DNA of 6,494 nucleotides from Deltaproteobacteria bacterium (GTDB lineage Bacteria > DRYD01). The notes under the pieces were generated by a model that was given only the letters and a program-made list of their open reading frames with translations, did no database searches and was not told the DNA's origin. Shown here one piece after another: positions 2,731-6,494 of the stretch (its first letter is position 1; each line of letters starts with the position of its first letter). Position numbers and translations under genes: made by a program. The stretch covers positions 1 to 6,494 of the forward strand of contig JAPYWL010000059.1 of the NCBI GenBank assembly GCA_028276365.1, written 5' to 3'.

Positions 2731-3996
2731 ATGGTTCAACCTTTTAAAGCTAAAATAGTAAATTTCCCTAAGAAATTAGATTATCAGGATAAATTGATTA
2801 TTTGTAAGGAATATTTTTATAATGTTAATAATATTCCTAATGATTATGTATTTACGGATTTAAGTAGCTTAAGTTTAAATGCTTTAAGTCAGGAGCAATA
2901 TGCAGGATTGTTTTTAGGTGATGAAGCTTATGCGGGATCAGAAAACTTTATTAATATCAAAAACGCTATAAAAAATATATTTAATAAGGATTATGTTATC
3001 CCTACTCATAATTTTATTGGAGCTGTCCACTTAATAATTAAAACTTTATACCATACCTTCAATATTAAAAATATTTTAACTACTTACCATAATTATTACC
3101 TTTATAAATTATCTATTTACTTGAATCTAAATTATAAAATCTTTAATATTGATAATTTAGTTAGTTATATAAAGGAAATAAAGGAAGAATCAAATAAGTT
3201 TATATTTTTTGAGGCTTCAAATTTAATTGAAACTTTGAAAACGTATCAGGATTTTATTAATTTAATAAATTCTCTTGAATTAATTAAAAAAGAAGGATTT
3301 AAATTAATAGGGGATTTTAGTAGTATTTTTTCTTCTCTTTATTTATTTTTTAAAAAGTTAAATAATTCTTTTGATTATAAAGACTATAAATCAAAGATAA
3401 TAAAGTTTAGTAGTATTTTTGATTTAATTATAATGGATGCTGAATATGATATTATGTCTAATACAGGAGCTTTAATATTTACTAATGATTTTTCTTTATA
3501 TGAATTATTAACTCAATACTTAGTATCTTTTGAAGGATTACATACTTATGGGGGATTAGCTGGTAGAGATATGGAAGTAATCTATAGAGGATTAATACAA
3601 GCTTATAATTTTGAACCAAGTTATAACATATATGATTATAAGTATCAAGAAATAAAATATCTATACGATAATGTTAAAAATATTGGATATAAAGTAAGTG
3701 ATTTAACTAATATTCATTATTTTTATATTGAAATAGAAAATCCTTATAGTTTCAATTTATTACTGTTTTTAAGTTCTCAATGTAGAGGGTTAGCTGTTGA
3801 TAATAAATTATATTTTTATTTACCAAGTAGAAGATACCAAAAAGCTAATTATGACTTAATAATTACTGCTTTAAAAGAGTTATATCGTTATAAAGATAAG
3901 GAATATTTAAAACTAACGGATATATCTGAATTATCTAAAGATTACTCTAAATTAAATTATTCCATTGATTTTCAAGTATTGAAGTTTGACTTAATT
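2731..3996 (+). other. N-terminal TPL-like pseudoenzyme half (residues 1-422)
   Basis: Aligned by eye with Citrobacter TPL, the cofactor residues are gone: Gln98-Gly99-Arg100 become Asn94-Phe95-Ile96, Arg217 becomes Ser198, Lys256-Lys257 become Glu238-Tyr239, and Arg404 becomes Tyr361. The AGGQPVS segment is lost and the Arg381 loop is deleted. Asp195 (Asp214) and Asn244 (Asn262) persist. Two islands remain nearly identical to active TPL: residues 63-73, with Glu65 (Glu69) and Tyr67 (Tyr71), and residues 267-282, with Tyr273 (Tyr291) and GLAGRDME. The rest has drifted toward Lys, Asn, Ile, Tyr and Phe. This half is unlikely to bind PLP. The retained islands suggest a structural or active-site-donating role. 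Confidence 0.8.
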
Positions 3997-5409
3997 GTGG
4001 GAAAAAATTTACCAAAGGTTTTAGAAATTAATCCCTTAGATTTTGTTGCTTATAATTTTAATGGAGTAGAAATTATAAGTAATAAAGATAAGGAGTATAG
4101 ATTAGTTAAATTAGAGGAAGCTGGTTATAATACTTTTTTACTTGATTCAAAAGATGTATTTATAGATTTATTAACGGATAGCGGAACAAGTGCTCAAAGT
4201 GATGAACAATTTAGCGCAGCTATTAAATATCAATCTGCTGATGCTTATAATTTATTAAAGCAAAGTATATATGAGATTTTTGGATTTGATTATTTTATTC
4301 CTACTCATCAAGGTAGAGCTGCTGAACATATACTTTCTCAAACGCTTATCAAAAAAGGACAGTATGTTATTAATAATATGTATTTTACGACTACAAGATT
4401 TCATCAGGAATATGCTGGCGGAATATTTGTTGATTTAATAGTTGATGAAGCCTATAAACCTCAATCTGATTACCCATTTAAAGGGAATTTAGATGTTGAA
4501 AAAACAAAAGAATTTGTAAAGAAAAATTACGATAAAATAGCTTATATTTGTATAGAAAATAATGTTAATATGGCTGGTGGACAGCCTGTTAGTATGGAAA
4601 ATATAAAAAAAATTAAAGAAATATGTGATGAATATAGTATCCCTTTAGTTTTAGATGCTACAAGAATAGCAGAAAACGCTTTCTTTATTAAAGAACGAAA
4701 AAAAGGATACCAAAATAAAGAGATAAAGGAAATAATAAGGGAAATGATGAGTTATATAGATGCTGCTACTATATCTGCTAAGAAAGACCCACTAACTAAT
4801 ATAAGTGGATTAATATTAGTAAGAAATCCCAAATGGTATAACCATATGATACAATTAACTACTCTGTTTGAAGGTAGTTATTTTAATGGTGGTTTAAATA
4901 ATAGGGATTTAGCTATGTTAGCTTTTGGATTAAAAGAAATGACTAATTATTATTATTTAAAGCAAAGGATAGAGCAAGTAAGGTATTTAGGAACACTTTT
5001 AAAACAAAAGGGAATACCTATAGTAGAACCAATAGGTGGGCATGCTATTTATTTAGATGCTAAGGAATTTCTAAAACATATACCCCAAGATAATTATCCT
5101 GCACAAGCTTTAGCTGCTTATATATATCTATATGGCGGTGTTAGGACTATGGAAAGAGGTATTGTTTCTGCTGGTAGGGACCCTGTAACTAAACAAAATA
5201 GACATCCAGAATTAGAGTTAGTTAGAATAACTATCCCTAGAAGGGTATATACTAATGAACACATGGAATATGTGGCTAATGTTATTTTTGAGGTTTATCA
5301 AGATAAAGATAAACTTTCAGGATTAGAAATAGTTTATGAACCACCTTTTTTAAGATTCTTTACTGCTAAATTCAAACCCCTTAAAATCTCTAAAACTACC
5401 ACTACTTAA
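2731..5409 (+). CDS. tpl: Tandem-fused tyrosine phenol-lyase with one degenerate and one catalytic half
   Basis: Tyrosine phenol-lyase is a cytoplasmic PLP enzyme that splits L-tyrosine to phenol, pyruvate and ammonia. Family members are ~456-470 residues; this protein has 892 and contains two copies. Residues ~442-892 align end to end with Citrobacter TPL, from EAGYNTFLLDSKD (463-475) to RFFTAKF (875-881). They include PLP Lys685 in SAKKD, Arg809 (TPL Arg381, Ile in tryptophanase) and Thr553 (TPL Thr124, Asp in tryptophanase), which favours tyrosine over tryptophan. Residues 1-~422 are a diverged second copy: PF at 4-5 matches the family start, GDEAYAGSENF is at 63-73 and TYGGLAGRDME at 272-282, but the PLP lysine is Tyr239. 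Residues ~423-441 act as a linker. The frame is unbroken, so this is a fusion and not two genes. Tryptophan indole-lyase is the main alternative. Confidence 0.88.
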   Translation: MVQPFKAKIVNFPKKLDYQDKLIICKEYFYNVNNIPNDYVFTDLSSLSLNALSQEQYAGLFLGDEAYAGSENFINIKNAIKNIFNKDYVIPTHNFIGAVHLIIKTLYHTFNIKNILTTYHNYYLYKLSIYLNLNYKIFNIDNLVSYIKEIKEESNKFIFFEASNLIETLKTYQDFINLINSLELIKKEGFKLIGDFSSIFSSLYLFFKKLNNSFDYKDYKSKIIKFSSIFDLIIMDAEYDIMSNTGALIFTNDFSLYELLTQYLVSFEGLHTYGGLAGRDMEVIYRGLIQAYNFEPSYNIYDYKYQEIKYLYDNVKNIGYKVSDLTNIHYFYIEIENPYSFNLLLFLSSQCRGLAVDNKLYFYLPSRRYQKANYDLIITALKELYRYKDKEYLKLTDISELSKDYSKLNYSIDFQVLKFDLIVGKNLPKVLEINPLDFVAYNFNGVEIISNKDKEYRLVKLEEAGYNTFLLDSKDVFIDLLTDSGTSAQSDEQFSAAIKYQSADAYNLLKQSIYEIFGFDYFIPTHQGRAAEHILSQTLIKKGQYVINNMYFTTTRFHQEYAGGIFVDLIVDEAYKPQSDYPFKGNLDVEKTKEFVKKNYDKIAYICIENNVNMAGGQPVSMENIKKIKEICDEYSIPLVLDATRIAENAFFIKERKKGYQNKEIKEIIREMMSYIDAATISAKKDPLTNISGLILVRNPKWYNHMIQLTTLFEGSYFNGGLNNRDLAMLAFGLKEMTNYYYLKQRIEQVRYLGTLLKQKGIPIVEPIGGHAIYLDAKEFLKHIPQDNYPAQALAAYIYLYGGVRTMERGIVSAGRDPVTKQNRHPELELVRITIPRRVYTNEHMEYVANVIFEVYQDKDKLSGLEIVYEPPFLRFFTAKFKPLKISKTTTT
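4054..5409 (+). other. C-terminal catalytic TPL half (residues 442-892)
   Basis: This half keeps the expected cofactor set: Gln527-Gly528-Arg529 (phosphate binding), Phe552 (ring stacking), Asn613 before AGGQPVS, Asp642 and Arg645 in DATR, Lys684-Lys685 and Arg832 (substrate carboxylate). It also keeps the substrate-pocket residues Phe469, Thr553, Arg809 and Phe876, plus Gly485 and Asn690 of the cation site. GDEAYAGSENF is missing. An alignment counted back from IFGF (516-519) needs a 4-residue deletion and places Tyr500 (context KYQSADAY) at Tyr71. The YEGMPSYGGLAGRDME region reads FEGSYFNGGLNNRDLA (713-728), replacing Met288 and Tyr291. These changes would be hard to tolerate in an ordinary homotetramer. 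Confidence 0.82.
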
Positions 5410-5545: not shown

Positions 5546-6494
5546 ATGATTTTTAATCATAGGTTTAATTTATCTTATTTTTTTAAAACTTCCTTATTTT
5601 TTTTGTTTCTGTCTTTCCTTATTTTTGCTTATTATTTGTATTTAAAAAATAATTCAAACTCTTTTAAAGATTTAATAATTGACATACAATTTTTAAAAAA
5701 TAATAATTTAAAAAATGTAGAACTACAAGAAATTAAATCAAAATATCAACAAAAGTATATTTTGGAAAATAATATTGTCCAAAAATTTATTTACTATAAG
5801 ATAATCAGTAATGTTGAGTATATATTAAACAATTTAAATAAAAGTCAAGTAGAGAATAATTTTAATTTTAATACTTCTTTTAAATTAGCAATTATTAAAG
5901 CTAACATTTATTTGAAAATGTTTTTTTTTATTTTGTTTTTATTGTTTTATTTCCTTATTTTAATTTTTTTAAATTTTATTTTTGATAAATATATGAAAAG
6001 GAATAATGATTTTAAAAAGAAATCTTTTTTAAATTTTTATATTGTTTTTTTTATATTTTTTATTTTTTTTACTTTTGTTTTTCCTTTAATTAACGATTTT
6101 GTTTTAGGTTTTTTATTAAATTTTTTTAAAGAACATATTGTTTATTTGATTTTGGTTTTTAACATTTTTGTTTTAGGTTATGTTTTTATTGTATTTTTTT
6201 TATTTTATTTTGATTATAATTCATTAGTTTTTAGTTTTCATAAATTTAGGTTTAATTCTACATTTAATTTTATTAAAAATTTAGGTTTTATTTTGATTTT
6301 TTTTATAATTGTTTTCTTAAGTGGGTTGTTTTTGAAAGAGGAAAGTAATAATTTAATAATAGCTTTTGTTTTATTAAGTAATATTTGGGAATTAATTTTT
6401 ATTTTTTTAGCTTTAGTATTTCTTATACCATTAGTAGAAGAAATTATTTTTAGATTTTATTTAATTAGTTATTTAGAGGATATTTTTTATAATA
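5546..6494 (+). CDS. CPBP-family intramembrane protease, 3'-truncated by the window
   Basis: The frame opens with ATG at 5546, directly after an in-frame TAG at 5543-5545, and runs without a stop to the window edge (316 codons, incomplete). Near the end it reads FLIPLVEEIIFRFYL, with Glu298, Glu299 and Arg303 forming the EExxxR motif of CPBP (CAAX protease / Abi, PF02517) membrane proteases. The later FxxxH and HxxxN/D-type motifs would lie beyond the window. Hydrophobic segments are at about 12-31, 125-147, 161-182, 198-222, 246-263 and 270-297, very rich in Phe and Ile. Residues ~32-122 form a polar Asn/Lys/Gln-rich region between the first two membrane segments. The start has no SD, like fmt and the 2008 gene. 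Members process proteins or peptides in the membrane, or act in bacteriocin immunity; the substrate cannot be inferred here. Confidence 0.78.
   Translation, partial: MIFNHRFNLSYFFKTSLFFLFLSFLIFAYYLYLKNNSNSFKDLIIDIQFLKNNNLKNVELQEIKSKYQQKYILENNIVQKFIYYKIISNVEYILNNLNKSQVENNFNFNTSFKLAIIKANIYLKMFFFILFLLFYFLILIFLNFIFDKYMKRNNDFKKKSFLNFYIVFFIFFIFFTFVFPLINDFVLGFLLNFFKEHIVYLILVFNIFVLGYVFIVFFLFYFDYNSLVFSFHKFRFNSTFNFIKNLGFILIFFIIVFLSGLFLKEESNNLIIAFVLLSNIWELIFIFLALVFLIPLVEEIIFRFYLISYLEDIFYN

Follow-up and report, generated by a model that had tools for sequence, protein, structure and literature searches.

What might one open frame be doing with two copies of tyrosine phenol-lyase (TPL), each of which lacks what the other keeps? 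Both TPL and tryptophanase have been described as tetramers built from identical chains. An ordinary TPL is a homotetramer of 456-residue chains, each with complete residues, whereas the fused form considered here consists of two copies with complementary losses. It has long been asked how a symmetric homodimer turns into a fixed asymmetric pair, and the usual approach has been through separate paralogous genes. In this work we have analysed a stretch of 6,494 nucleotides (the window) which carries such a fused gene. We propose that its product is an obligate pseudo-heterodimer within one polypeptide, in which the C half would be catalytic and the N half its partner, and that the fused form had a single origin; we put the probability of this reading at about 85%.

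Two TPL-like halves in one open frame

The window is contig 33 of a metagenome-assembled genome of 1.59 Mb which is 87% complete. The fused TPL-like gene is an uninterrupted frame of 892 codons at positions 2731-5409 of the plus strand, on which all features described below lie, and a strong ribosome-binding site, AGGAGG (2714-2719), is found 11 bases 5' of its ATG. The earlier note on this DNA had claimed that two TPL copies lie within the one frame, and the family matches of both halves bear this out. The N half (aa 1-438; 2731-4044), a decayed copy, matches the NCBIfam tryptophanase/TPL models at 7e-37 and 1e-33 and Pfam Beta_elim_lyase at 2e-8. The C half (aa 441-892; 4051-5406) is about 50% identical to the TPL of Citrobacter freundii (EC 4.1.99.2; TIGR02618), with an E value of 2e-149. 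Both halves lie above the gathering score of PF01212, the beta-eliminating lyase fold family (236.3 and 34.5 versus 27). The equivalog cut-off of TIGR02618, 720.7 bits, is reached neither by the whole chain (694.4) nor by the C half (591.2), and the fused protein departs from a usual TPL in two respects, in scoring below this curated model cut-off and in having no full residue set in either copy.

The predicted structures of the halves can be compared with known enzymes. The AlphaFold2 model of the N half alone (aa 1-432) has the TPL fold, with Z of 32-34 to TPL and tryptophanase, and the C-half model superposes on Citrobacter TPL with Z 52.8 and an rmsd of 1.6 over 431 residues; in both Foldseek and VIA-align each half was matched to TPL/tryptophanase. 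The linker (aa 396-428; 3916-4014) is modelled with low confidence (pLDDT <50) and is partly a genus-specific insertion, seen as a gap in relatives.

Residues kept and lost in the two halves

Residues were mapped through an alignment with Citrobacter numbering, and 14 C halves and 14 N halves were tabulated. In the C half of the window's protein we recovered all the residues which had been listed for it beforehand: the PLP lysine K685 (=Lys257; 4783-4785), the QGR phosphate-binding loop (Q527-R529; 4309-4317), T553, N613, D642, R645, R809 (=Arg381) and R832 (=Arg404; 5224-5226). R809 stands together with M807 (=Met379) in the motif RTMERG (5143-5160), and these two are TPL substrate-specificity residues. 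The losses described for the N half were confirmed as well, with Tyr239 (3445-3447) where the PLP lysine would be and with QGR, R217, R381 and R404 gone. Two islands are retained in this half. Island 1, GDEAYAGSENF (aa 63-73; 2917-2949), includes E65 (=Glu69) and Y67 (=Tyr71), and island 2, EGLHTYGGLAGRDME (aa 268-282; 3532-3576), includes L270 (=288) and Y273 (=Tyr291). The claim that the N half keeps exactly two segments proved too narrow: both islands are kept, but so are scattered other residues (e.g. P95, H97, D214, R377 and R410). The claim that the C half has lost both segments holds for GDEAYAG, which is deleted or replaced there (aa 495-507; 4213-4251), but for the second (4870-4914) in part only: Y291, replaced by Asn719, is gone together with G296 and M299, while GG 292-293 and RD 297-298 stay. 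Y500 adjoins a four-residue deletion, and one placement of the gap aligns it with Tyr71, so that the absence of Tyr71 from the C half of the window's protein is ambiguous and a matter of alignment judgement. In the C halves of four other loci (L041-L044) nothing is deleted and position 71 is occupied by S, S, E and M, which makes their loss of Tyr71 unambiguous; they retain Glu at 69.

Is this division of residues peculiar to the window? At 19 cis positions all 14 tabulated C halves carry the residues of Citrobacter TPL, FGQGRFTNDRSKKNMRRFF; these positions include K257, QGR, F123, T124, N185, D214, R217, S254, M379, R381, R404, F448 and F449. The residues Q98, R100, F123, N185, D214, R217, S254, K257 and R404 are all present in 14/14 C halves and are not present as a set in the N halves; R381, M379 and K256 are kept in no N half and QGR only in that of L043. 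Most of the other cis residues, Arg404 among them, are likewise gone from the N halves. Tyr71, Leu288 and Tyr291 occur in 14/14 N halves and Glu69 in 13/14, and all C halves are without Tyr291 and without the GDEAYAG segment around Tyr71. Tyr71 and Tyr291 are not found together in each copy of about 456 residues; it is the N half that has both.

The concentration of these differences in the islands was assessed over 201 positions conserved in ordinary TPLs, 21 of them inside the islands and 180 outside. The N halves keep 20/21 of the former and 13/180 of the latter (Fisher p ~6e-18), and the C halves lose 13/21 inside the islands versus 12/180 elsewhere (p 7e-9), where the p-values are descriptive because related sequences are not independent. 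As the islands were named from one sequence, the other families can serve as a fair replication, and when the family of the window was excluded the N halves kept 21/21 versus 21/180 and the C halves lost 12/21 versus 13/180. The expectation that the islands are conserved in the N half only was borne out in the 12-13 other fused proteins on which we tested it.

The N half had also been called dead. Most of its active-site residues are indeed gone, but Lys occurs at position 257 in two of 16 N halves, those of L034 and L035, though Arg217, Arg381, Arg404 and most of QGR are absent there. Among the N halves, the one from Nitrospirota (L043:4712-7483) is the least decayed: it has kept QGR, carries Gly in place of Glu69 and scores 293 bits to the family model; it may represent an early-diverging stage. 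From this value the N-half scores to the family models go down to 116 bits (L032), a range which suggests different stages of decay.

The proposed pairing and its alternatives

What could be the use of the two islands? In TPL itself we take Tyr71, Met288 and Glu69 (with K+) to act across the subunit interface; direct trans evidence is for tryptophanase. This enzyme (TnaA) shares family and fold with the fused TPL and is the source of the structural evidence on Tyr74 and Tyr307, which, from where they stand with respect to the PLP lysine and QGR, presumably correspond to TPL Tyr71 and Tyr291, respectively. In E. coli tryptophanase, Tyr74 and Tyr307 reach from one subunit to the neighbour's PLP phosphate and bond it, and negligible activity is left in the Y74F mutant (PMC2770544). 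Given these contacts, the retained islands would hold the residues which one subunit gives its partner. Both of them carry residues whose tryptophanase equivalents cross the subunit interface, which supports the suggestion of the earlier note that the N half supplies in trans what is missing from the C half. If an N:C pair retains only one of two sites, the residues kept and lost in each half are the ones to be expected.

According to the mechanism we propose, the C half would bind PLP on Lys685 and bear the residues for catalysis and specificity. The N half, having retained its fold and lost its own active site, would act as the partner subunit and lend Tyr67 (=Tyr71), Tyr273 (=Tyr291), Leu270 and Glu65 (=Glu69) to the C-half site across the catalytic dimer interface. 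Each N+C pair would then have one active site, versus two in an ordinary TPL dimer, and after fusion each half would have shed the residues which served only the abandoned site, the cis residues in the N half and the trans residues in the C half. We infer the pairing geometry, the TPL activity, the one PLP per chain and the pairing within the chain. Several observations speak against the pseudo-heterodimer: Lys257 in L034 and L035, the kept QGR and lost Glu69 of L043, the Glu69 of the L041-L044 C halves, Y500 in the window and the TIGR02618 score.

Could the same N:C site be formed between two chains? In such a domain-swapped arrangement a dimer of fused chains would have two reciprocal sites, and the wide variation in linker length between lineages would be compatible with it. 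Under either kind of pairing a higher oligomer would be likely, as known TPL and tryptophanase assemble as dimers of dimers (PMC2770544). An AlphaFold2 model of the whole chain, made with 13 fused sequences, has a mean pLDDT of 78 and a pTM of 0.73. This pTM is probably higher than two freely placed halves would give and suggests some confidence in their relative placement. A fairly high pTM in a single-chain model would count against the swap, which we regard as possible but doubtful.

It may also be that the halves pair as proposed and that the enzyme has another substrate or reaction than TPL. Most fused C halves have E181 with N/D183 beside Asn185 (window aa 609-613), without counterpart in canonical TPLs, and this would favour such a change. 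However, in the C half all tested columns outside the islands which distinguish TPL from tryptophanase read as in TPL (Y122, T124, M379, R381, T406 and F448). Where tryptophanase has D124, V379, I/V381 and H448, all C halves have the TPL-type T, M, R and F, and we consider a different substrate improbable. The C halves of all fused loci read VINNMYF (window aa 546-552) where Citrobacter TPL has VAGNMYF; judged from the alignment, this and E181 with N/D183 are clade-specific changes near the putative active site.

A less favourable view of the N half is that it is a decaying relic or a passive folding aid and that the C half works alone as a symmetric C:C dimer. Most canonical residues of the N half are lost and its dN is about two to three times that of the C half, as this view would predict. 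However, when five pairs of related genes were compared, dN/dS lay at 0.04-0.24 in the N half and at 0.02-0.075 in the C half, rough values since synonymous sites are near-saturated in some pairs, and with such values the N half is not drifting freely; by this estimate both halves are under purifying selection, the N half clearly so. In addition, both interface islands are near invariant across phyla, the partner residues which a C:C dimer would need are absent from the C half, and dead N halves as genes of their own did not turn up in a sample of 290-386 genomes. We therefore hold the relic to be very unlikely and keep to the pseudo-heterodimer.

Origin, known counterparts and surroundings

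In the tree, the C halves fall into a single, fully supported clade within the TPL group, and the N halves lie together on long branches; separate trees of N and C halves agree at well-supported forks. At the diagnostic TPL/tryptophanase columns in or next to the islands the N halves mostly have the TPL letter (70A in 12/14, 76N, 283V and 288L). As far as sequence comparison can tell, these results show a TPL ancestry of both halves in a single clade. The history which fits best is that a TPL gene was duplicated and fused once and was later passed between phyla, the transfer being suggested by how widely the hosts are scattered, many of them metagenome bins with uncertain labels.

The search for other fused TPLs proposed in the earlier note was productive. 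A scan of 84,980 species genomes with two peptide patterns revealed 14 other full-length or near-full-length loci and two fragments in about six phyla, a lower bound because both patterns are apparently specific to the fused clade. The records of the fused loci are labelled Calescibacterium, Caldipriscus, WOR-3, Chlorobiota/Bacteroidetes, Anaerolineales and Nitrospirae, and they come partly from the same genomes as the set from the window's family (e.g. L031 = G001). Within the window's genus and family the fused form is complete in G001, G002, G003 and G005 and is cut by contig ends in G004. Split genes were rejected for G004, where the N half ends near a contig end (6836) and the C piece begins at a contig end. 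Among 386 kinship-sampled genomes, roughly 95 of which carried TPL or tryptophanase, the fused form was not found outside the window's family. Every source is a metagenome-assembled genome, but an artefact of assembly or binning, or a chance tandem of genes without a stop, is almost certainly not the explanation, because independent assemblies from different sites and phyla carry the same fusion and the N and C trees are congruent. At L039:5920-8454 a single in-frame stop splits the fused gene; its close relatives L038 and L040 are intact.

How does the fused protein relate to known enzymes? Citrobacter freundii TPL is the closest reference, as the C half has all its cis catalytic and specificity residues and the N half has its fold and keeps its interface-crossing residues. 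Double-length or alpha-beta glycine decarboxylase has been described as unusual for a PLP enzyme of fold type I (PMC7259800). The P-protein of this enzyme (GLDC/GcvP) is, like the fused TPL, a double-length fold type I protein with the PLP lysine in its C-terminal half. It exists in a split alpha-beta form in some bacteria and archaea, whereas for the fused TPL we found no split form among the genomes sampled. The fused TPL gave no match to the GcvP family in Pfam or NCBIfam at E 0.001, all matches being to Beta_elim_lyase, TPL and tryptophanase, and it is most likely an independent TPL-family counterpart of the P-protein, an internal pseudo-dimer with one PLP site. In serine palmitoyltransferase, one member of the homologous pair LCB1/LCB2 is without the PLP lysine and is believed to help form the one active site by completing it (PMC3794620); unlike the fused TPL, these are two separate chains, of another family and eukaryotic. 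By analogy, the fused TPL may work like glycine decarboxylase and serine palmitoyltransferase while being of TPL lineage. We found no published account of a fused TPL in the open-licence literature, outside which subscription journals largely lie. It is probably a second, independent single-chain obligate pseudo-heterodimer of fold type I, with decay stages preserved in living lineages, from the near-complete N half of Nitrospirota to the heavily decayed one of the window.

If this is true, the path from a homodimer to a fixed asymmetric dimer could be replayed in the laboratory. The fused TPL offers duplication, fusion and reciprocal loss within one well-understood family, with single-residue predictions and several decay stages that can be compared. 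It would be inadvisable to annotate or express the TPL-like genes of these lineages as the C half alone. Biocatalysis would gain a TPL-type enzyme whose active site could be mutated on one side without touching the other.

The surroundings of the gene were also inspected. Upstream lies a methionyl-tRNA formyltransferase-like gene (1036-1989), which scores below the curated cut-off; a second, weaker copy is on G000:C46. The flanking frames 2008-2703 and 5546-6493, the latter running off the contig end, have no match in Pfam or NCBIfam. At L031 the fused gene is flanked by genes similar in size and place to those of the window, and in other lineages it is not. A conserved operon was rejected, since the neighbours of the fused gene vary from lineage to lineage, and the genomic context is therefore uninformative on function. 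The genome of the window also has a separate tryptophanase-type enzyme (L002; G000:C93:2554-3879) with D124, V379, V381 and H448, and all five other genomes of the family contain a related copy.
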